Shown here: piece by piece, positions 9,228 to 52,666 of the stretch
Layout: every line of letters begins with the position of its first letter
Numbering within the stretch: the first letter of the stretch is position 1
DNA from: Muricea muricata
Lineage: Eukaryota; Cnidaria; Anthozoa; Malacalcyonacea; Plexauridae
Length of the DNA: 64,000 nucleotides
Assembly: GCA_963855995.1 (NCBI GenBank)
Contig: OY979716.1
Coordinates: 43,870,480 to 43,934,479 of the forward strand
Reading direction: 5' to 3'
Notes under the pieces: model-generated
Databases searched by the model: none
What the model saw: only the letters and a program-made list of their open reading frames with translations
Told to the model about the DNA's origin: nothing
Made by a program: the position numbers and the translations under genes

Positions 9228-11956
9228 GGTGGAATGGTACCCAAAATTTTAAAATTTTTTAAAATTTTTTTTCCCTTTTTTGGCACAATGGGTTTGTGGT
9301 GTTCTTAATACAAAAAGAAATTTCTAAAATATCTCAAAATTTGTAGCTTTTTTTTGCTTATTTCTGAAGTGCTTTAGTTGGTTGCTATGGGCAACCGAAT
9401 TGTATACATGCTATTTCTGTGTAATAAACAGGGGAGAAACCCGCAAAATTACATTGAATTTGCCCTTCATGTTCTTAGACCATGTTACTTCTCTTACATA
9501 ATGTTGCCCCGTAACCGCTGGTCACTAGGATCGAAATAAAACGTTTTGAGATTTTGGAAGAGGTGTGTAAATGTTTGTATCTTAGTGTTTCGAAATATTA
9601 CTTTGTAAGTTTGCTTTTTGAAGAAATTTGAAGGTAGAATTTGTGTTAAAATATTTGTATATGCCAAAGCAACGTTCAGTTAGACGTAAAAAGAGAAAAT
9701 TCTGTGGGAATCAGTTTGCTAAAGCGGACAAATGTACTGAAATGGAGACGTCAACGTCGGAGTCAGCTGCTAATATTTCTACAGCCTCAAGCCGAAAACT
9801 CTCCAGTAGTCCTAGGGTCGGAAGCAAAAGAAAAAGGGATTGTTCAATGAATCACAATGACCAGTACGTTGAACGCTTCCGATTCATTGATATGGTCATA
9901 CTTGGGGGAGTTGTATCACTTCTAAAGTGCCCCACGTGTGAATGTTTGAGTCTAATCCTGATGGAAGGCAGTTCAAAACGCCATGCCTGTTCGTCTGAAT
10001 TAAGAATCCTGTGTGAAGGATGTGGATGGTTAAACACATTTTTTACATCCAAGAAACAAAGGAAATCTTTTGAAGTAAACAGACGTCTAGTTTATGCAAT
10101 GAGGTCAATTGGAAAAGGTCACAGCGGTGCCAAGAAATTTTGTGCTTTCATGAATATGCCTCAACCCTCTAAACCCAAACCATACCAGAAAAGCAATAAG
10201 ACAATAACAAAACATTTAAAATCAATAGCAAGAAAGACAATGTCTGATGCAGCAGACGAGGTAAGAAATCTCAAAAAGGTCAACAATGATGAAGTGGCTG
10301 ACTGTGCAGTGTCATGTGATGGTACTTGGCAGAGACGTGGTTTCTCCTCCCTGAATGGTTGTGTCACAGTGATGTCCATTGACATTGCAAAAGTTTTGGA
10401 CACTGAACCCTTGAGTCGAACATGTAAGCAATGCCAACTCCATTCTCACCTTGACAAGGAAGGTATTGGATATCAAACATGGAAAGCCAACCATACCCAG
10501 CGTTCTGCAAATTTTAGGGGGTCGGCCCCAGCCATGGAGCCAGAAGGTGCCTTGCGGATCTTCAAAAGGTCGGAGATGTTGCACAAACTTAGGTACACTG
10601 AACTGTATGAAGATGGAGACAGCAAATCTTATAGTCAGGTCAAAGATGTTTAAAAGGAACAAGACATTGAAGTTGTGAAGCAAGAGTGCATTGGCCATGA
10701 GCAAAAAAGAGTTGGTACCGCACTTAGGAATCTCAAAAAAGAAACACCTGGTCTTGGAGGTAAGGGAAAATTGACAGATGCTATGATTGACAAATTGCAA
10801 AATTATTATGGCATAGCTATTAGAGCAAATGTTAACAATGCTGAAGAAATGGAGAAGGCTATATTAGCAAGCTTCTTCCACTGTGCTTCTAGTCAATCTC
10901 ATCCCCTTCACGATTATTGTCCCGATGGTCCCGACAGCTGGTGTGGGTTTAAAAAACATAAAAGAACTTATAAACATGGTTCAGGACTCTCTTTGCCAAT
11001 TATTGCTAAAGTTAAGCCAATTTATCAAAGGCTTAGTGATAAAACATTACTTAAAAAATGCCTGCATTGAAAGACCCAAAATCAGAACGAAAGCCTAAAT
11101 GCTCTTCTTTGGCAAAGAGTCCCGAAGGAGGTTTTTGTTGCAAGGAAACTATTGAATTTGGCTTATATGATGCCAATGCACATTTCAACAATGGTGCACA
11201 GATTGTTCTGTCATTGTACAAAGCCCTGGGAATATCACCAGGAAAATACACAGAAGCTGGTTGTGAAACCCTTGATCGAGACCACTCATACAAAGCTGCC
11301 TACAAAGAGCAGGAGACAAACAAGAAAAGAAGAAAAATATTAAGAGGTCAAAAGAAAAAAAAGGAAGACAAGAAAAAGGACTCAGAAGGATTAACATATG
11401 GTGCAGGACAGTTTTAGGGTATGCTAGCTGTCAAAATGTTATTCTAAAGCACTGTGAACAGTTGATAGTTAACTTTTACTTAGCGATTTCTCAAATTTAC
11501 AAATTAGCCTATTAGTGGCATTGTTAACAGTTCTCATGCACAGTGGATTTTATATATCTCAATGAATTTTAGCATACAATTCACTTATATACCATTCTGT
11601 GATATGAACCTTAAATATAGTTTGTTATTTCATTGCCCTGTAATTAAATTATTAATTCCAAGGCGTGGCCATAAATTAGTTGCAACTAACTTTTCCTAAT
11701 ATCCTCTAGGAAGCAAGTGCAATGTTCTTGTTAGGTTCATATCACACATGTCTCTAGTGTAAACACTCACAAAGTTTCTGGATCAAATATTGTTTCTTTC
11801 CAGTGATATTGCTGTCACCGTAAAAGGCCAAAAATGGACCTTTGGGTGTGGCACCGTTGCCATGACAACAGAACAGTGTTCAAATGAGTCTGAATTAACT
11901 CCATTTTTTATCTAGAATACTATTATGATAATTAAAAAAAAATGCCAAAAATAATT
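9228..11956 (+). mobile_element. TTAA-flanked DNA transposon (Kolobok-like) in the LINE
   Basis: The LINE sequence breaks at TTAA (9224-9227) and resumes after TTAA (11957-11960). Leaving out 9228-11956 and one TTAA leaves the LINE linker frame open across the junction, which is strong evidence for an insertion with a 4-bp TTAA duplication. That duplication is typical of Kolobok and piggyBac elements. I do not see convincing TIRs: the left end starts GGTGGAATGG and the right end is a run of A/T, so the right end may be worn. It encodes the transposase pseudogene at 9628-11417. Confidence 0.65.
9628..11417 (+). pseudogene. Mutator-like transposase, inactivated
   Basis: Basic, Ser-rich N-terminus, then CPTCECL and CEGCGW cysteine pairs, then DCAVSCDGTWQRRGFSSLNG, SAPAMEPEGALRIFKRSE, ECIGHEQKRVG, GGKGKLTDAMIDKLQNYYG and SWCGFKKH. 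This series matches the family annotated as a Mutator-like transposase domain in many invertebrates. The first D of a DDE core is plausibly in SCDGTW. The gene is broken by in-frame stops at 10651 (TAA) and about 11068 (TGA) and by a frameshift near 11150; the lysine-rich tail ends at 11417. The TTAA context of the element would point to Kolobok-type movement. Start could be internal (ATG at 9661). Confidence 0.75.
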
Positions 11957-35230: not shown

Positions 35231-37960
35231 AATGAATGAACCTATTGAAAACACTGAAAACTTCAAGATACGAAACATCATGAGTGAGCTTTCGAATCTT
35301 TTCACCCATGCAATTGAGCAGGTAAATGATATTTTATGTTATAACTCATTTCAATATATTGATATAAATTTTCTAATGTAGACTATGTAAATATCTACAT
35401 TTGCTTAAAGTTGCTAAAAGGCTTAATTAAGGTAAAAAATCCTTTTTAAAGGTGAAAGAACAATGCGAGTTCCGGTCGCCGCCAGAAGACAAAATTCGTG
35501 TCATGGTCCGCTCTAGTTCTCTAAAGGCACCTATTAGTACGGGACTTATCCCATCGGCGCAAATGACCTCCAATAAAGTTCTTGGTGAAATTACCAAGGT
35601 CTTCCAAAGTAACGAGGAAATTCCCCTTGACCAATCCTTCACTATCGACATCATTGGCGTTAAGGCACCGACAGGTTCTGATCTCTTAAGGTACTGAATT
35701 ATTCCAAAGACACTCACATTAAAAAATCTAGACACAATTTATGTTGTGGGCATGCTTTAGCTGTGGGAAGGGCAATAACAGATAACCATCCCAAGTTATT
35801 AAAATTTAAGCAGGGTAGACTAATACAAAAGCGATCAGCCTTATATTTATACAAAAAAGCCAATATTTTGCCTGGTCCTTGCAATCTTCGCGAAATAAGC
35901 AAATTTCAGGGGTCCCTACCTGGTTACCAGATAATTGTCATTGATTTTCATGCTCGTAATACTAGCATATATGAGGGCCCACAGGCAGAAAAAAAATGTT
36001 GCATAAGAACGGCGATCATTATAACGTGTAAACCCCAAGAAACTACCGGCTTTCCACGAAAAACAATTTTTTTGTGAAAAGTGTAAGTCTTTTAAGTCTT
36101 TTTTTGAAAACTATCGCACACATCCTTGTAACGATCTATGTCACACTTGTTTGCGCAAAGAATGTCTTACGGTTTCTGGTGAAAAACGTACTTGTCCGGA
36201 GTGTTTGAAAACTTGTCGTTCAACTAAATGTTTTGAACATCACAAAAAGTCTCGCAAGTCAAAGGGAGTCAGACTTCCTTCGAAATGCGAGACATCGTTC
36301 AAATGTCAAACGTGTTCAGGGGATGTTGAACGTAAGCGACAAGACAACCATAGGTGTGGTGAACGTGTTTGTCATATTTGTAAGGAGTATGTGTTGTCTG
36401 ACCATTTATGTTACATGCAACCTGAACCTCCTAAAAAACCTAACGATAAACTTACATGTTATGATTTTGAAACTGATTTTTTTCCAGGGCAGCATGTAGT
36501 TAACTTTGCTGTTGGTCAGTATAGTGATGTGACAAAGTTTGTGTTTAAAGGGTACAATGCACTGCACGAATTTTGTGCATTCACGACACCTAAGGCAACA
36601 GGCGAAATGCAACTTTTCCTGGACACGTTTGACACTGTAACCGACCTCGACCCTCGTGACAGTTTCTTTGGTGGAAGGGTCGGCGGTTACAAACTATTTC
36701 GTGAAGCAAAAGCAGATGAAACAATAGAATATTTAGATTTTACTTTGTATCCGTTCGTTAATAAAACAAAAAAGTATCCCACTCCGCATCCGATGATTAT
36801 TCGCAAAAATTTCCAACATATTTCAAATTACTTCGATTTGATAAAATGTAAAGTTTTGGCACCTGCAAATTTGTACCATCCGGTTCTCCCAGTTCGTGCA
36901 AAAGGTAAACTTTTCTTTCCTTTGTGCAAGCAATGTGTCGTGGAAAGCTCTTTACAACGCCAGCATTCTGAAGAGGAGCGTTCGTTTTGGGGCACTTTTA
37001 CTACTATTGAAGTGTTAAAAGCCATCGAGAAGGGTTACAAGGTCCTGGAAATTCATGAGGTGTGGCACTTTGAAAAAAACATCTTGTGATTTATTGAGTG
37101 AATATGTTAACTGTTTTTTAAGACTAAAACAGGAGAGCTCGAGATTTACAGATTGGGTTAAAACACCCGAGGACCAGGTAAGATATATCAATGAGTACTA
37201 TAGACATGAAGGAATCCTTTTACATACAGATAAAATTGCAAAGAATCCTGGTCTGCATGCATTCACTAAATTATGTCTAAACTCACTTTAGGGGCGCTTT
37301 GCTATGCGTACCGATCAAGTAATGACAGAATTCATTACTGATCCTCTACAATTTTATAAACGTATCAATGTGGCAGACACAGAAATGCATGATCTTTGCC
37401 TGTTAAATGATGAACTAGTAGAAGTAGTTTTTAAGCATAAGCAGGAGTATGCTGAGGAGAGTAAAGCTATTAATTTATTTGTAGGTATTTTCACAACAGC
37501 ATGGGCTAGATTAGAGTTATATAACCCACTAGACCCATTGGGAGAGAGTGTTTTGTATGTAGATACAGATAGTAGTGTTTATGTATCCAAATCGGGAGTC
37601 CTAAACCTGCTACAGGAGATTTTCTTGGGGATCTTACTAATGATATTATGCCCAAACATGGTCAATGGGCATATATCACTCAGTTTCTTTGTGGGGGGCC
37701 CAAGAATTATGCCTATAAAGTTAATAATGGAAAGACCCATTGTAAAATAAGGGGGTTTACTTTGAATTACACAAACAGCTTGGTCTTAAATTTTGATTCA
37801 TTAAAAGATGTAATATGTAGGAAAGTTAAGAAATTAAGGAAAAACAAAAACAGTGTAAATAGCTTAAAAATCATAAATGAGTGCAAAATATCCAGATTGT
37901 CAACAAGCTTGAAGTGAAAGAATACAATGTCGTATTTGACAAGAGAATTGTTCTCGGTAA
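35231..37960 (+). pseudogene. Protein-primed DNA polymerase B (pPolB) of the Polinton, broken
   Basis: Successive frames give QSNEEIPLDQSFTIDIIG (N-terminal region typical of Polinton PolB), GPCNLREISKFQGSLPGYQ, several CxxC pairs (CQTCSGDVERKRQDNHRC, CHICKEYVLSDHLC), an exonuclease-I-like YDFETD, then DSFFGGRVGGYKLF, a palm motif A region (LDFTLYPFVNK, one residue shorter than usual), KLCLNSL, and palm motif C YVDTDS. Lesions: frameshifts near 35700, 36075 and 37085, a missing middle section after the exonuclease start, a TAG at 37289 right after KLCLNSL, and another shift near 37600. The enzyme would replicate the element from a protein primer; this copy cannot. Confidence 0.85.
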
Positions 37961-40072: not shown

Positions 40073-40276
40073 TACGGTGGCCCAGAAGGGACAGCACCTT
40101 CATAAGATAAAAACGCTGCAATGCTGTAAAAATGCTGTTTATTATATGAAATTTACAAACAATCAATATATCACGCAACAAGTAATAATAATCCTGTATT
40201 CCTGTATCATCAAATAACAAATGCACGCTGCAAGTAAAAACTTTTGCACGCTGCAAATAAAAACGTTTGCACGCTA
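40073..40276 (+). repeat. Left TIR of the IS3EU-like element, outer part
   Basis: About 150 bp of unique TIR followed by the first two units of the GCACGCTGCAAATAAAAAC array. It is interrupted at the TA at 40275-40276 by the Rep/Tc1 element; the TIR resumes at 44552. Confidence 0.9.
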
Positions 40277-40530
40277 CAACCAGTGACATTAAAAGGTGGG
40301 ACACCCAATTTATAACTATAAATTTATGTAAACTTGCAAAATTCTTATTAACCCCTCCTCCCCCTTTTCAATGTTGGATTTTTTTGACAACAGAACAACC
40401 AGAGACATGCTAGGACAGAAGGTCAGCTCGCGTAAGATCGCAGTTTTGGCCTCACAACATTGAAAAGGGGGCAAGGGGGGGTTAAGTTCCAATTTCGGGT
40501 CAGTCGGTCCGCCAATTTTGTCACTGATTG
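40277..40530 (+). repeat. Left 254-bp terminal unit of the Rep/Tc1 element
   Basis: Matches 44298-44551 in the same orientation at 253 of 254 positions by eye (AAT against TAT near 40307). The unit is bounded by CAACCAGTGAC and GTCACTGATTG and contains a nested inverted repeat, TTTTCAATGTTG against CAACATTGAAAA with C-rich/G-rich flanks (17 bp perfect, longer with gaps). It can fold as a hairpin. Confidence 0.9.
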
Positions 40531-40707
40531 TCTGAGCCATTTGGAGTGCTGTTGGTCAACTTCATTTATGTATAACTTTAAAACTAAGCAAGGTAACTGC
40601 ACCAAATTTTCAGCATAACGAAAATGTTGAATGAGCTATGATTAGGAATCATCATAATCCACTAGTTAATTATGTGACGTAATAATAAATCGTATTAATG
40701 ACTGATC
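40531..40707. promoter_or_regulatory. Probable promoter region of the Tc1-type transposase
   Basis: Leader between the terminal unit and the ATG at 40708. It begins with TCTGAGCC, the inverse of which lies just before the right unit. No clear TATA box; ACGTAATAATAAATCG precedes the start. Confidence 0.25.
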
Positions 40708-41760
40708 ATGAAGCGAAATAGGTATTTTACGGCTGAGCAGCGGGCTTTAGCCCTCCTAATGAGACGGGAAATGAAATACTCATATCGGAAGATTGCCTTG
40801 AAAACCAATATGTCAAAGACAAGTGTCCAGAGGATTGTTAAGCAAGCTGATTGTGGACGGAAGAGCGTGCTAAACTCGAAATCTAATCGTGGTCGACGAA
40901 AATCATTATCAGAAAGAGACCAGCGAAAGCTTAGAAGAGCAATCATACAACTCCGAGAAAAGACTCCAAATTTTACAGTGATGGAGGTAGTGCAAAGGAG
41001 TGGAGTTTCCGCAACCTTAGTGTCTTACAGAACGTTTGTTCGTTATGTGAAAAAGCTGGGATACGGTTTCTTTCAAAGTCGCAAGAAAGGGGTGCTTACA
41101 AGGAAAGATTTCCAAATACGCCGTACGTTCGCACGGTCTATGATGAAGAAACCACCTGATTATTGGACAAAAGGCGTTGCATTTTACTTGGATGGCGTTT
41201 CCTTCATCTACAAATCCAACCCAATGAGTGACGCACTGAAACCAAAAACTCGTGTTTGGCGAAAAAGGGGGGAAGGCCTACTGATAACTACAAAAGGAAG
41301 CAAAGAGCTCGCCGGTGGCAGAAGACTGCACTTGCTGGTGGCTATAGCGTACGGGAAAGGGGTTATTTGTGCCGAAACATATGAGAAAATGGATGGGCCA
41401 TATTTTGCTCGCTTCATTCGCCGTCAATTTCCAACACTCTTTGACATAACAGGAAAACAAAGCAATAATACTCCAAAATTATTTGTAATGGATAATGATC
41501 CCTCACAAACGTCAGCTGTTGCAAAGAAAGCCTTACATTCTATTGGTGCGACCATGCAAGTAATTCCAGCCAGATCTCCAGATATAAATCCGATAGAAAA
41601 TTTGTTCAACGTCGTGCGCAAAAACATTGAAGCAGAAATATTACAGAAAAATATAATATATCAATCATGGGATGAATTCGTTGAAAGAGTTAAATTTCAT
41701 ATATGGTCAGTTCCAAAAGAATATATAAATAAGACTGGGAAGTATGCCAAACAGAATTAA
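40708..41760 (+). CDS. Tc1-type DD34E transposase, intact
   Basis: 350 residues, uninterrupted, from ATG at 40708 to TAA at 41758. The N-terminal paired-like helix-turn-helix (about residues 8-50, YSYRKIALKTNMSKTSVQRI) would bind the terminal repeats. The catalytic triad is D162 (FYLDGVSF), D262 (VMDNDPSQTS) and E297 (SPDINPIENLF), with 34 residues between the last two, the Tc1-type spacing. Length matches Tc1 transposases. It cuts and pastes DNA into TA sites, consistent with the TA at both element ends. It converges with the Rep gene at 42322 within the same element. No lesion seen. Confidence 0.9.
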   Translation: MKRNRYFTAEQRALALLMRREMKYSYRKIALKTNMSKTSVQRIVKQADCGRKSVLNSKSNRGRRKSLSERDQRKLRRAIIQLREKTPNFTVMEVVQRSGVSATLVSYRTFVRYVKKLGYGFFQSRKKGVLTRKDFQIRRTFARSMMKKPPDYWTKGVAFYLDGVSFIYKSNPMSDALKPKTRVWRKRGEGLLITTKGSKELAGGRRLHLLVAIAYGKGVICAETYEKMDGPYFARFIRRQFPTLFDITGKQSNNTPKLFVMDNDPSQTSAVAKKALHSIGATMQVIPARSPDINPIENLFNVVRKNIEAEILQKNIIYQSWDEFVERVKFHIWSVPKEYINKTGKYAKQN

Positions 41761-42321
41761 AGAAATTGTTAAACGCAAGGGTATGCGCACAAAATACTAA
41801 CTTTAATTAAATAATAGAGAACCTTACAATGTGTATGAATATTTTGTATTTGATTGTAAACCCCCTTATATTACAAGCATTAAATTGTTTATCTAACAAA
41901 CTGATTGAATTATGGCAGTGTCATGTTACATTAAGCTAAACCAAAAATCGCCGAAAATATCCTTTAAAGGTAGTTGCTAACTTACTCTTGAGTGCCATGA
42001 AAGTTCTGTGATGATTTGATAACATATTTACACGCATAACCATTCAAATTTTCGAATTTTCGTACGATTTTAAGCGAGTAACCACGAGTCACCACGAGTA
42101 ACCATGCAATGATAAATATGTTAATATGCTACACTAATTTATAAACACAAACATGGTTACTCGTGGTGACTCGTGGTTACTCGTGCTATCTACTTAATTA
42201 TAGCAATTTCGGCACGGTTACTCGTTAACAAACATATACTAAACACTTATAAGAAGAAGTTATGTTTTTTCAACTGCGATGTCTTTCACGATAATGCCAT
42301 ATTTAACGAATACATTTCTCA
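41761..42321. other. Intergenic region between convergent transposase and Rep genes
   Basis: Non-coding, holding the iteron hairpin (42075-42183) and one further iteron near 42213. No other gene is seen. AATAAA-type signals for both convergent transcripts would be expected here but none is distinctive. Confidence 0.5.
42075..42225. promoter_or_regulatory. Iteron-bearing hairpin, candidate Rep origin
   Basis: Left arm 42075-42106 and right arm 42152-42183 are perfect 32-bp reverse complements with a 45-nt AT-rich loop. Each arm has three iterons of period 10 (GAGTAACCAC, GAGTCACCAC, GAGTAACCAT), and another copy (GGTTACTCG) lies at about 42217. Stem-loops with Rep-binding iterons are the hallmark of CRESS and other HUH replication origins. 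The loop has TTAATATGCTAC, only loosely like the TAATATTAC nicking site. Position between the two 3' ends suits an origin; function is inferred. Confidence 0.6.
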
Positions 42322-43770
42322 TTAGTCAAGCCAGTCGTAGCTCTCGAGGATGAGCCGAGCGAAGCACGCTGGGCAAGGATCTATGTCCCGTTGCTCTTCC
42401 TGCAAAATCTGCCTGTTGAAATTAAATATTTTCCATCGAACGGCCATCATTTCTGTCTCCCTCTCGTCAACAACTCCCCCTTTAACATAAACCAACTGAT
42501 GCTTGCTGGTGCTGAAAATTGGCGTGTCTTTGTCAAACACTAGATCATGGGCAAAGTGCGATTTCGGTGCGGGCAAGTGGACTAACTGACCCTCCAGCAT
42601 CAACAGCAAATCATGCCAGGCGATTATCTGAGGTGACCAACGAAAGTCATTCAAGAAAAGCACTTCGGCTTTTTCAGCTCCTACCCACGCGAAACTTGTT
42701 GATGCCGGGTTAGTAAAAGTGCTAAATATCTTGTTAAGAGGATTTAGCAAGAATGTTTTGCCGCAATTCGCTGGGCCCGTCAACATAATGTTTCTAAATT
42801 TACCACGACCTTTTATTAATAGTTGTTTTACACAGTTAGCAAAATTGTCAACAGCAATATTGTTATTTGCAAGTAATTGCAATGCGCAGCTATGCCATTC
42901 GGCTTTTGCATTGCAAGTACATTGTCCTTCATGTGCCTCGCTTAGAATTTCAATGCGGGTTTTACATTGCCTATCCTGCGTTTTCTGTGCCGATTCCATC
43001 TCCCAAGCTGTTGCTATAACTTCGCTGACCACCTTTTTACCACGGTTTACAATAAACTCAGCCAAATCAGTCTTCCCTTCCTCTCTTTGCCGGTTTGAGA
43101 AAGCTAAAAGTTCAGTTCGATTTTTTAAGCCTTTCCTTAGGACGATCTCAGAAACTTCATACGCACTTAACCGCTTTCGCTTCTTTGTCTTTGTTGGTTT
43201 TTTAAGCTCGCTTTCATGTTGCACTTGCCCACATTCATCTGAGCAATCTATATCTACGTCCTGTTCGATATTTTCATGCGAACGCCGTCTCACAGCTGTG
43301 CTCTTGTAGTTGGCTTCACTTGCTCTCATTGTTGATGGTTCTTCGCTGTCGTTTAAGTCAGGGTGTCCTTCGCTTTCGAGTGAATGTTTGTCTTCTTTCG
43401 TAACGTATTTCCATGCCGTATAATAGTTAGCATGCACGCTTGAGAAATGAACGGAAATACCATATTCGTCAGCAAGATATTTCTTTGCGCTCAACCATCG
43501 TTGATTTTTGCTAAGTTTCAAACACATGTGGTAATGCACTCCAGATTTCTTATGGTATTCTTGTGAACAGCACCATTGTAGAATTTTGGCGGATCTTTTG
43601 TGAAACGATTTATTTACCGCTTGGGCAAACGCTGCTCTTGTTGGGAATTTTGACGTGTTGGCTTGGCTATATGTAACCAAATAAACTTTCCGAATTTGCC
43701 TTTTGCCTAACTCACATTTATCAGAATCAGAACAGGAGGAACTACTTTCATAGCCTTCAATAAGATCCAT
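42322..43770 (-). CDS. CRESS-virus-like Rep: HUH endonuclease plus SF3 helicase, intact
   Basis: 482 residues, uninterrupted, from ATG at 43770. The N-terminal HUH nickase has motif I VYLVTYSQ (29-36), motif II HYH (79-81, in KSGVHYHMCLK) and motif III WKYVTKED with Y122 as nicking tyrosine and K125. A basic KKPTKTKKRKR tract (about 190-200) may be a nuclear signal. The superfamily-3 helicase has Walker A GPANCGKT (332-339), Walker B VLFLND (370-375) and motif C PIFSTSK (417-423). This order is that of Reps of circular ssDNA viruses, and parvovirus NS1 has the same plan; the motif I and III forms favour the CRESS side. It would nick and unwind an origin for rolling-circle-type replication. 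The Walker B N-D pair is a mild deviation. No lesion seen. Confidence 0.9.
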   Translation of the reverse strand: MDLIEGYESSSSCSDSDKCELGKRQIRKVYLVTYSQANTSKFPTRAAFAQAVNKSFHKRSAKILQWCCSQEYHKKSGVHYHMCLKLSKNQRWLSAKKYLADEYGISVHFSSVHANYYTAWKYVTKEDKHSLESEGHPDLNDSEEPSTMRASEANYKSTAVRRRSHENIEQDVDIDCSDECGQVQHESELKKPTKTKKRKRLSAYEVSEIVLRKGLKNRTELLAFSNRQREEGKTDLAEFIVNRGKKVVSEVIATAWEMESAQKTQDRQCKTRIEILSEAHEGQCTCNAKAEWHSCALQLLANNNIAVDNFANCVKQLLIKGRGKFRNIMLTGPANCGKTFLLNPLNKIFSTFTNPASTSFAWVGAEKAEVLFLNDFRWSPQIIAWHDLLLMLEGQLVHLPAPKSHFAHDLVFDKDTPIFSTSKHQLVYVKGGVVDERETEMMAVRWKIFNFNRQILQEEQRDIDPCPACFARLILESYDWLD

Positions 43771-44297
43771 GTTTCGAAATTCAATTAAATTCGTTAAAAG
43801 TCTTAACCGGCAAAAAGCGTATAGACAGCGTGTCCTTCAAAAAGACAGATGTCGAAAATAATCGTGTAACACAATATGCCAGAAACGCAGTCATCACGTT
43901 AATAGACTTAAATTATTTGCGACTTGCGAGTGTAACACGGCATATGATGGCTTATATGCCTGCCATGAATAAAGAATAAAGCATTGACCTTTAAAAATTA
44001 CATTAAATGTGTGTAAAAATTTTATAACTGAGTTTATACTGAGAATAATTGTGAGATTGTTAGAAGCGTGCGGTATTCGCAAAAATCACATGCGTCACTT
44101 TTATAGACAAGTGCGTAAAATGCATTCTAAAATACTCCCGTGAAATATTGTTTATTTTAAATCCTTAAGAGTTCACAACAAAATATTATGGAGAAGTGTT
44201 TAAAATGTCTTTAGTAAAGAACCTAGAGCATTACATAATCAAAAAGCTAACTTTAGTACAAATTTTACAAACATGAACACCCTCGAATTTGCTCAGA
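43771..44297. promoter_or_regulatory. Upstream region of the Rep gene up to the right terminal unit
   Basis: Non-coding, AT-rich; presumably the Rep promoter. It ends with TTGCTCAGA, the inverse of the sequence just inside the left unit. No named site recognised. Confidence 0.3.
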
Positions 44298-44551
44298 CAA
44301 CCAGTGACATTAAAAGGTGGGACACCCTATTTATAACTATAAATTTATGTAAACTTGCAAAATTCTTATTAACCCCTCCTCCCCCTTTTCAATGTTGGAT
44401 TTTTTTGACAACAGAACAACCAGAGACATGCTAGGACAGAAGGTCAGCTCGCGTAAGATCGCAGTTTTGGCCTCACAACATTGAAAAGGGGGCAAGGGGG
44501 GGTTAAGTTCCAATTTCGGGTCAGTCGGTCCGCCAATTTTGTCACTGATTG
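44298..44551 (+). repeat. Right 254-bp terminal unit of the Rep/Tc1 element
   Basis: Direct repeat of 40277-40530, ending GTCACTGATTG|TA. Being in the same orientation at both ends, it resembles a long terminal direct repeat, while its own ends are inverted repeats of each other over 11 bp. Confidence 0.9.
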
Positions 44552-44868
44552 TAGCTGCAAATAAAAACTTTTGCACGCTGCAAATAAAAACTTTTGCACG
44601 CTGCAAATAAAAACTTTTGCACGCTGCAAATAAAAACGTTTGCACGCTAGCTGCAAATAAAAACTTTTGCACGCTGCAAATAAAAACGTTTGCACGCTAG
44701 CTGCAAATAAAAACTTTTGCACGCTGCAAATAAAAACTTTTGCACGCTGCAAATAAAAACTTTTGCATGCTGCAAATAAAAACTTTTGCACACTGCAAGT
44801 AAAAACTTTTGCTCGCTGCAAGTAAAAACTTTTGCACGCTGCAAATAAAAAGCTCAAGAGCGTGCGCG
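44552..44868 (+). repeat. Left TIR of the IS3EU-like element, tandem array part
   Basis: About a dozen units of GCACGCTGCAAATAAAAACT-type repeats (22-23 bp; some with GCTAGCTG), ending AAAAAGCTCAAGAGCGTGCG, which is mirrored at 52329-52360. The right array is shorter (about 7 units), so copy number has changed since insertion or between ends. Confidence 0.85.
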
Positions 44869-44890: not shown

Positions 44891-46142
44891 ATGGCGTCTG
44901 ATGAGTCGAGCGACAATGAAGTTGATGCATGGGATGAAAATCATAATAGAAATACGCATACCGAATTACCGCAGGGGTCAGAATGAGATGTGATTGAATA
45001 CTACTTCAACAGAGGTTTAACATACAGACATATTACTCTTATTTAGAGAAACATCACAATATTGTGATGTCCGAAAGAACTTTGAAACGTAGGCTGAACG
45101 ACTATGGTTGTGCAAGACGCTCTGACGTTGACGACGATTTAAGAAGACTGGTAAGGGATCTTATCTTGTTAGAAATTGGAAATGGGCCAGATAGTCTTAA
45201 TGGCTACCGTACCATGTGGCATATTCTTCGACTTAGACACGGCATTAATGTTCCAAGGAACCTGGTACAAAGAATTTTAAAGGAAGTGGATCCTCAAGGT
45301 GTGGAAAGAAGAAAGCGTAGGTGTTTGAAACGGAGAATGTATATTTCGCAAGGTCCTAATCATTGCTGGCACATAGACGGCTACGACAAACTAAAACCTT
45401 TTGGCTTTTCAATACACGGTTGTGTAGACGGTTTTAGTAGAAGGATAATATGGCTTGAAGTGCAGAGGTCCAACAAGAATCCAAGGGCAGTGGCCAAGTA
45501 TTTTTTAAAATGTGTAAAAGCATCTCGAGGATGCCCAACAAGAGTGTATACTGATCCAGGCACAGAAAATGGTGTCATTGCAGGAATACAATGTTATTTA
45601 CGTGCAGAAGGTACAGACGAGTATGCTGCTCTAAGGCACATAAATATGTCTCAAGCACTAGCAACCAAAGAATTGAGTGTCAATGGTCCCATTTTAGAAA
45701 ACAGCATGCTAGTTGGTGGAGTGACTTTTTTTATGATCTTCATGAGTCAGATATTCTTAATCTCAGCAGTGAAATACACATGGAAGCATTATGGTATTGT
45801 TTTGCTGATTTACTGCAGGCTGACCTGGATAAGGTTAAGGAATATTGAAACTCCCATCGCATTAGAAAGTCAAGGCATGGTAGTACATCTGGTGTACCTG
45901 ATATGATGTATTTCTTACCTGAAGAATTCGGATATCATGAGTGCATTCACCCAGTTTCTGTGGACAAAATAACAGAGATCGAAAACATACTGGAGGAACT
46001 AAAAGGGGAGGATGAAGAGGACACTGTGTTTGAAGAGTATTTTGAATATGCAATGGCATTAAACAACTTAAACCATCCAACATCCATTGAAGAGGGAGGA
46101 GTCTTGTTTCAAAGGTTAACTCAGTTTGCCTGTGGAAACTAG
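44891..46142 (+). pseudogene. IS3EU-like integrase/transposase (rve fold), frameshifted
   Basis: MASDESSDNEVDAWDENHN begins at 44891; after an early stop and shift come MSERTLKRRLNDYG (helix-turn-helix-like), SLNGYRTMWHILRLRHGINV, the DDE core with D in CWHIDGYDKLKPFG and GCVDGFSRRIIW, D in RVYTDPGTENGV, and, in a shifted frame near 45675, E in SNQRIECQW. The tail (FLPEEFGYHEC) ends at 46140. Related integrase-core proteins are common in fish and cnidarian genomes. Lesions: stop and shift before 45064, shifts near 45610 and 45850. It would mobilise the element that carries it. The copy is inactive, so the element needed a helper or decayed after landing. Confidence 0.8.
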
Positions 46143-52328: not shown

Positions 52329-52666
52329 CGTCACATGCGCGAGCACGCTCTTGAGCTTTTTATTTGCAGCGTGCAAAAGTTTTTATTTGCAGCGAGCAAA
52401 AGTTTTTACTTGCAGCGTGCAAAAGTTTTTATTTGCAGCGTGCAAAAGTTTTTATTTGCAGCTAGCGTGCAAACGTTTTTATTTGCAGCGTGCAAAAGTT
52501 TTTACTTGCAGTGTGCATTTGTTATTTGATGATACAGGAATACAGGATTATTATTACTTGTTGCGTGATATATTGATTGTTTGTAAATTTCATACAATAA
52601 ACAGCATTTTTACAGCATTGCAGCGTTTTTATCTTATGAAGGTGCTGTCCCTTCTGGGCCACCGTA
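52329..52666 (-). repeat. Right TIR of the IS3EU-like element
   Basis: Inverse of the left TIR: array of about seven GTGCAAAAGTTTTTATTTGCA-type units (52345-52515), then the unique part ending GGCCCACCGTA-like at 52666 (GGGCCACCGTA). Only about two differences from the left TIR in the unique part. Confidence 0.9.

Follow-up and report, generated by a model that had tools for sequence, protein, structure and literature searches.

The stretch of Muricea muricata DNA that we analysed (hereafter the window, 64,000 nucleotides) holds a unit at positions 40277-44551 in which a 254-bp repeat, here called X, stands on either side of 3,767 bp of internal sequence, with a TA at each outer border. The bounds are exact, and the internal part carries a transposase gene and, convergent to it, a gene for a viral-type replication initiator (Rep):

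40275..40276, no strand: TA, left copy of the target-site duplication (end reading and empty site)
40277..40530, + strand: X, left 254-bp terminal direct repeat, an imperfect palindrome with the ends CAACCAGTGACA and TGTCACTGATTG (repeat comparison)
40531..40537, + strand: TCTGAGC, inner flank of the left X (inverted match to 44291-44297)
40708..41760, + strand: Tc1/IS630-type DD34E transposase frame, 350 codons (D162, D262, E297; profile matches)
42075..42183, no strand: intergenic hairpin, candidate replication origin (perfect arms, iterons)
42322..43770, - strand: Rep, 482 aa, HUH nuclease (H79, H81, Y122, K125) and SF3 helicase (frames, profiles, alignment, fold)
44291..44297, + strand: GCTCAGA, inner flank of the right X (repeat comparison, end reading)
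44298..44551, + strand: X, right 254-bp terminal direct repeat (one mismatch to the left X)
44552..44553, no strand: TA, right copy of the target-site duplication (end reading and empty site)

The two X copies run in the same direction, that is, they are direct and not inverted repeats, and each is a long imperfect palindrome. The outer ends of the unit form 12-bp terminal inverted repeats (CAACCAGTGACA and TGTCACTGATTG) with one mismatch. The initial annotation had described a 4.28-kb unit with a TA duplication and matching 254-bp ends, and these bounds were confirmed, with a single mismatch between the ends and an empty site present; its view of them as the usual ends of a transposon was not supported, since the repeats are direct.

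The empty site lies at 44660-44739, in the same minisatellite, where 80 bp of host flanks joined with one TA are matched exactly, indicating that the whole unit was inserted in one piece. In principle, two solo copies of X (MITEs) inserted near each other, or sequences adjoining by chance, could mimic such an element, as each X bears both kinds of end. For this locus, however, that reading is refuted by an empty site spanning the whole unit; moreover, TA is absent from the inner X borders in most families (two have it at one or both of them), and the same layout recurs elsewhere in the genome. We regard this explanation as extremely improbable. A genome search for solo X, in which 40 of 88 candidates were scored, gave 40 full-length matches, all identical and all inside known elements.

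Transposase, Rep and the intergenic hairpin

The transposase matched the profiles DDE_3 (2e-13) and HTH_23 (5e-07) above the cut-off, and an IS630 model (1.7e-20) and HTH_Tnp_Tc3_2 below it. Aligned with 26 relatives, it keeps D162, D262 and E297, the last two separated by 34 residues, which bears out the DD34E enzyme with all three acids proposed earlier. The genes had also been described as two intact convergent genes: they are convergent, and Rep is an intact open frame of 482 codons, but the transposase frame shifts near window position 41735, with the loss of about 20 C-terminal residues that are present in 24 of the 26 aligned relatives. In other copies from this genome the transposase frame stays open over 366 codons.

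In an alignment of 60 sequences, the HUH residues of Rep (H79, H81), Tyr122 and Lys125, Walker A, Walker B and motif C are invariant or nearly so (residue numbers are those of the full protein; alignment numbers are one lower), and all the motifs first listed for this protein, the nicking tyrosine among them, are therefore present. Its designation as CRESS-like applies to the nuclease domain, the fold of which resembles CRESS and geminivirus Rep, but not to the helicase, the fold of which is nearer to that of parvo- and papillomaviruses, with AAV Rep and B19 NS1 as best matches. Both Pfam and fold comparison matched the helicase to SF3 families, with no Pif1, the helicase type that goes with HUH in Helitrons, among the matches listed; PDB sequence searches gave nothing useful.

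The hairpin between the genes has perfect 32-nt arms (42075-42106 and 42152-42183) and a 45-nt loop, and each arm holds three 10-nt iterons of the GAGTAACCAC type. Apart from two frames that overlap the transposase and Rep genes, we found no further ATG frame of at least 80 codons in the unit (introns not considered). No capsid gene was found among such frames, and the direct repeats enclose no reverse transcriptase, a trait of LTR retrotransposons, but only the transposase, Rep and the two overlapping frames.

The viral type of Rep and the many public relatives on contigs of approximately unit size might suggest an endogenised ssDNA virus, still with a particle, that acquired a Tc1 transposase. 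We consider this very unlikely, given the lack of additional ATG frames of that size and the absence of any confirmed relative when IMG/VR viral contigs were searched with either Rep or the transposase; none was confirmed in genome contigs or phages either. Among the best 120 matches of each public search, contigs of equal size in the Rep and transposase results numbered four below 5 kb, where 2.0 would be expected (four is reached in 131 of 992 offset controls), and one above 5 kb (14,409), where the expectation is 0.012 (reached in 11 of 992 controls), which is only suggestive of pairing in other species.

Gene pairing and arrays across the genome

The pairing of Rep and transposase recurs in dozens of elements of the same genome, with Rep identity ranging down to about 40%, and the genes are convergent wherever both were seen. 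After pieces were merged per element (Rep from 97 to 88, transposase from 116 to 115), a convergent transposase was found among the listed matches for all 58 Reps of four array regions and for 15 of the 30 dispersed Reps. Where no partner was listed, we inspected its expected place. Rep was there in 17 of the 20 cases inspected among 41 such transposases, six of which are units of a single array (in the one that was read, Rep was present). A transposase was likewise found in 9 of the 11 cases inspected among 15 dispersed Reps, a test that left out two C10 copies. Two more of these 15 Reps, read fully (C1:28.33M and C1:84.68M), had a transposase, and in all, five expected partners were absent from the inspected places. 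The joining of both genes in one element, as initially annotated, is thus a recurrent trait, and neither of the outcomes named beforehand as contrary to it, genes only apart elsewhere or a Rep with its own boundaries inside a plain Tc1 element, appeared. Identities of Rep and transposase were correlated (Spearman 0.51, 38 pairs), but only at 0.32 (p 0.06) in the 34 pairs below 90%, so the two genes may have been exchanged between lineages.

At 20 insertions we read the end regions on both sides, and the ends could be placed at 17 (all but C1:6.08M, C1:60.18M and C2:34.57M). TA stands on both sides in 16 of these 17 and TT in one. The layout is conserved, with X, the transposase, the convergent Rep and a second X in direct orientation, and it is inserted at TA with duplication either as a single unit or as a head-to-tail array, (X-internal)n-X. 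Arrays of 5, 6 and 17 units were found, each bounded by TA. Where X is missing inside arrays, four of five junctions carry CA or CAG, like the footprints of Tc1 excision, for which CA-type remains are a known trace. Inner X flanks of the TCTG/CAGA type recur in most families read.

Multi-unit arrays occur in at least three families. The window family includes up to four young ones (in C3, C9 and two in C34) and five young single copies at 99-100% identity; at least four more copies at 95-96% were listed as single matches. The two C34 arrays may be one fragment; C34 has exactly 125,000 bases and is thus probably a scaffold fragment, so that array size there is uncertain. Units within arrays differ by a few substitutions, grouped in blocks. 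The array at C1:9.79M has a right end without X. Of nine further elements, one could not be read because of satellite DNA, and in two others the portions read lacked a direct repeat.

The palindromic X with its inverted inner flanks, together with the helicase matches to AAV Rep and B19 NS1, could point to a linear replicon of the parvovirus or AAV type, in which X would be a terminal hairpin resolved by Rep (flip/flop) and the transposase an addition for integration. At all window-family ends read, the orientation of X relative to the genes was constant, and the flip/flop reading was dropped for that reason; we find such a replicon quite unlikely. Parvovirus NS1/Rep, the Saccoglossus parvovirus-like repeat and Hydra DENSOV_HM (PMC3198968) share the SF3 helicase fold and palindromic ends with the coral element, which differs from them in its CRESS-type nuclease and Tc1 transposase, with no VP gene and no flip/flop of the palindrome seen.

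Proposed amplification and comparison with known systems

We think it rather likely that Rep amplifies a circle into concatemers from which the transposase inserts X-bounded lengths. The circle, suggested among others by the arrays, would contain one X and the internal part. Rep would nick it, the hairpin with iterons between the genes being the probable site, and head-to-tail concatemers would result from rolling-circle replication. The transposase would recognise the two ends carried by every X and cut at an arbitrary pair of X copies, and the intervening DNA together with X would enter a TA as (X-internal)n-X, with n of at least 1. Such a course would account for ends that are direct, LTR-like and near-identical, and the recurring CAGA-X-TCTG inner flanks would represent the donor context in the circle. 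Cut-and-paste integration with Rep amplification, perhaps through a circle, had been proposed initially; TA-bounded head-to-tail arrays raise the support for it, while the circle and the amplification are still what we infer. We give an even chance to the further proposal that arrays reaching 17 units or more (about 68 kb) were inserted in one step, X being an LTR-like cutting module for a Tc1 transposase and the viral-type initiator making extrachromosomal head-to-tail DNA.

Some observations count against the circle model. A one-unit copy has one central hairpin, and circular release needs X-X recombination or another route. Of six families examined for the hairpin, two show it clearly and four show a weaker one. 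Block-wise differences between units are also expected from unequal exchange after insertion. The five absent partners, the C1:9.79M end without X, the two elements without a direct repeat in what was read of them, the unreadable third, the TA at inner X borders in two families and the uncertain array size in C34 were counted on the same side.

Alternatively, single units alone may transpose by cut and paste and arrays may grow in place by unequal crossing-over between direct X copies, Rep having another role or acting on the chromosome. Direct repeats favour unequal exchange, which would leave the outer TA and X intact, and both the variant blocks and the abundance of single copies are consistent with it. 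Nevertheless, it fits less well with multi-unit arrays in several families and with young arrays beside young single copies in the window family, and it leaves unexplained the direct terminal repeats of single copies and the long constraint on Rep. We judge in-place growth possible but unlikely.

The coral element shares with Tc1/mariner (IS630-Tc1-mariner) elements a DD34E transposase with HTH domains, the TA duplication and CA-type footprints. It differs from them in carrying Rep, in long terminal repeats that are direct and each a palindrome, and in occurring also as TA-bounded multi-unit arrays. A transposase as sole gene is usual in Tc1/mariner, although not strictly defining; here, Rep stands beside most transposases examined.

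The Reps of CRESS-DNA viruses (geminiviruses TYLCV and WDV, redondovirus, nanovirus, circovirus) have the same HUH fold, single tyrosine, YxxK motif and SF3 helicase, and in these viruses iterons lie close to a hairpin, as in the coral element. Unlike them, the coral Rep has a helicase nearer to AAV, B19 and papillomavirus and lies inside a transposon without capsid. Helitrons and Replitrons also combine an HUH enzyme with a eukaryotic transposon, but there the HUH enzyme performs transposition itself and no DDE enzyme is known to be involved.

The closest precedent found is a degenerate element of the truffle Tuber melanosporum, a geminivirus-like transposon (Liu et al. 2011; PMC3198968) whose repeated element unites a Rep-like frame with transposase frames. 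The frames of this fungal element are interrupted or truncated, its transposase family is unnamed in the part of that paper used here, and its ends are 37-bp terminal inverted repeats with no obvious target-site duplication, in contrast to the direct 254-bp repeats and TA of the coral element. In PMC titles and abstract openings, a scope with most subscription journals, Repbase Reports and preprints outside it, we found no description of a Tc1 element that combines Rep with terminal repeats in direct orientation.

The window unit probably belongs to a large lineage of DNA transposons of the Tc1 type that carry their own viral-type replication initiator. Transposons that move by cut and paste do not replicate themselves, and on the usual view they gain copies through host repair or replication timing; in a lineage that carries a replication initiator, copy gain could be intrinsic. 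In animals, such a lineage would form a natural link from ssDNA viruses to transposons, and long tandem (satellite-like) arrays would arise from it directly.

The element and its two genes

We found a Tc1 transposase gene and a Rep gene converging on each other within one unit, which is adjoined by TA on both sides.

Features of the window (coordinates, strand, description)
9628-10653, +, Mutator-like transposase fragment (Pfam Mutator, 9e-52)
36151-37089, +, type B DNA polymerase fragment (DNA_pol_B_2, 7e-10)
40277-44551, Tc1-Rep unit
40708-41760, +, transposase frame (matches DDE_3 and HTH_23 above cut-off and, below cut-off, the IS630 model)
42322-43770, -, Rep, open over 482 codons (H79, H81, Y122, K125, SF3 motifs)
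45064-45906, +, integrase-core frame just downstream of the unit (rva_4, 5e-18)

The polymerase fragment, upstream of the unit, is perhaps part of a Polinton/Maverick-like element.

The transposase has all three catalytic residues (D162, D262 and E297), the last two spaced by 34 residues. Its frame diverges from those of its relatives near 41735 and lacks the last ~20 residues, which are kept in 24 of 26 aligned relatives, or in 23 by a stricter recount in which one of the three exceptions is a variant of the same end; elsewhere in the genome, other copies have open frames of 366 codons. The Rep nuclease residues and SF3 motifs are invariant or nearly so in an alignment of 60 sequences. Between the window copy and the element at C1:71.6M (contig of the same assembly and position in Mb), dN/dS is 0.11 for the transposase (dS 1.5) and dN is 0.155 for Rep, with dS saturated. 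Selection has maintained both genes.

The window occupies C1:43870480-43934479 of a 453-Mb assembly (74 contigs). This assembly contains at least 97 Rep and at least 116 transposase matches, and in this one genome the Tc1 transposase and the viral-type Rep form a single conserved element. After pieces of one element were merged, a convergent transposase was among the matches listed for all 58 Reps lying in four array regions and for 15 of the 30 that are dispersed. For part of the genes without a listed partner, the expected partner positions were fetched. Rep was at the expected place, and convergent, for 17 of 20 transposases, with none there beside those at C1:74.35M, C3:34.61M and C8:7.75M; the transposase was at the expected place for nine of 11 Reps, with none there beside those at C1:67.6M and C1:110.5M. 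Eight of these nine transposases could be oriented by the window query, all being convergent, and the ninth (C2:40.32M), matched by another query only, is also on the opposite strand.

One group combines the most diverged Rep (~40% identity) with a transposase at 50-52%; in another, a Rep at 50-57% accompanies a transposase at ~40%. Gene exchange between lineages is a possible explanation.

Public protein searches returned 783 Rep and 502 transposase relatives. Named anthozoan sources among the best 120 listed for each were Acropora millepora and Porites evermanni for Rep, and Dendronephthya gigantea, Paramuricea clavata and, more distantly, Exaiptasia diaphana for the transposase. Judged by the closest named transposases, the window is probably octocoral DNA. 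The closest precedent found in the open part of PMC is a truffle element (PMC3198968) that also unites Rep with two transposase frames; its ends are inverted, its frames are broken, and no target duplication is obvious.

Terminal repeats and insertion sites

The unit ends in two 254-bp copies of a repeat, X, in the same orientation and with one mismatch between them. X is a long imperfect palindrome with a 12-bp end sequence, with one mismatch, at both of its ends. The 80-bp empty site (40 bp of host flank per side with one TA) has an exact match at window 44660-44739, in the same 23-bp minisatellite that hosts the unit, and therefore the whole unit represents one insertion. The inner X borders read TCTGAGC and GCTCAGA instead of TA, which rules out two separate solo X insertions at this locus.

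A 204-bp inverted repeat (40073-40276 and 52463-52666, 99% identical) has 23-bp minisatellite arrays adjoining it. The unit sits inside one of these arrays, perhaps at one end of a larger transposon.

Besides the window family, other families carry terminal repeats in direct orientation.

Terminal direct repeats (locus, length, identity within each element)
C1:71.6M, 255 bp, 99-100%
C1:28.3M, 254 bp, 99-100%
C12:4.35M, C1:65.18M and C1:123.48M, 278 bp, 99-100%
C1:45.39M, 266 bp, 99-100%
C1:118.5M and C1:39.2M, 196-197 bp, 99-100%
C1:84.68M (older element), 168 bp, 93%

Among 9 further elements, the sequence read from two showed no terminal direct repeat, and satellite DNA made one unreadable. 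For 20 insertions the two end regions were retrieved, and the ends could be placed at 17, with TA on both sides in 16 and TT on both sides in one. C-TA-G is favoured as target, the left flank ending in cTA in 15 of the 17 and the right flank starting with TAg in 16. TA also adjoins the left end of three more multi-unit insertions (C34, C1:9.79M and C1:52.06M); there was no X at the right end of the C1:9.79M array, and the sequence read stopped short of that of C1:52.06M.

Inner flanks, adjoining X on the element side, read TCTG.../...CAGA in most families; both inner borders read TA in C1:118.5M, as does one in C1:39.2M. At all window-family ends read, X kept the same orientation to the genes, which counts against a parvovirus-like terminal flip/flop. 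At C2:13.82M the left and right X are identical, down to a private 21-bp insertion. Of the copies at C1:37.41M and C2:50.41M, one has part of its left X region duplicated and the other has lost 92 bp from the centre of the palindrome there; the right X is whole.

Arrays, with proposed excision and amplification

Many units form head-to-tail arrays in which X and the internal part alternate.

Arrays (location, content, spacing)
C3, 17 Reps, mostly every 4,023 bp
C9, 5 Reps, every 4,028 bp
C34, 22 Reps one way and 8 the other way
C1:9.79M, 6 Reps of the family with 50-57% identical Rep, every 4,049 bp
C2:49.86M, six transposases, mostly every 3,956 bp; Rep ~40% identical in the one unit read

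At C3, C9 and C2:49.86M the array begins with TA-X and closes with X-TA. Exact X copies were flanked by GA/TC in 26 cases, GA/TA in seven and TA/TC in four, counts that are not independent, since loci overlap; none among the loci examined had TA on both sides. Each array is most simply read as a single insertion.

C34 is exactly 125,000 bases long and is probably a scaffold fragment. At ~92.9 kb, the X end of one array directly adjoins a TA that lies within a shortened unit facing the other way, as if one array had been inserted into another or the scaffold misjoined.

Five units of the listed arrays fall short by 251-273 bp, and all five sequences were read: at four junctions CA or CAG links inner flanks that are intact, and the fifth shows an additional small deletion. 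Tc1 and Tc3 excision leaves two-base remains of this kind. From these footprints, the transposase appears to excise X from a CAGA/TCTG context, the surroundings to be expected for X within a circle or concatemer.

A candidate Rep origin is the hairpin found between the convergent genes; its arms match perfectly over 32 nt, and each carries three 10-nt iterons. A similar hairpin with similar iterons occurs in the family whose Rep is 75% identical; in four more families an intergenic hairpin is present, with repeats weaker or none.

The replicating form may be a circle carrying one X. Its head-to-tail copying would yield X and internal part in alternation, and cutting at two X copies would then necessarily leave direct repeats at the element ends. 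The main rival is that arrays grow in place by unequal exchange, which the blocks of variants among array units fit too, and which is also favoured by the commonness of single copies (five at 99-100% identity and at least four more at 95-96%). On the best reading of these structures, Rep would amplify circles and concatemers would be the inserted form.
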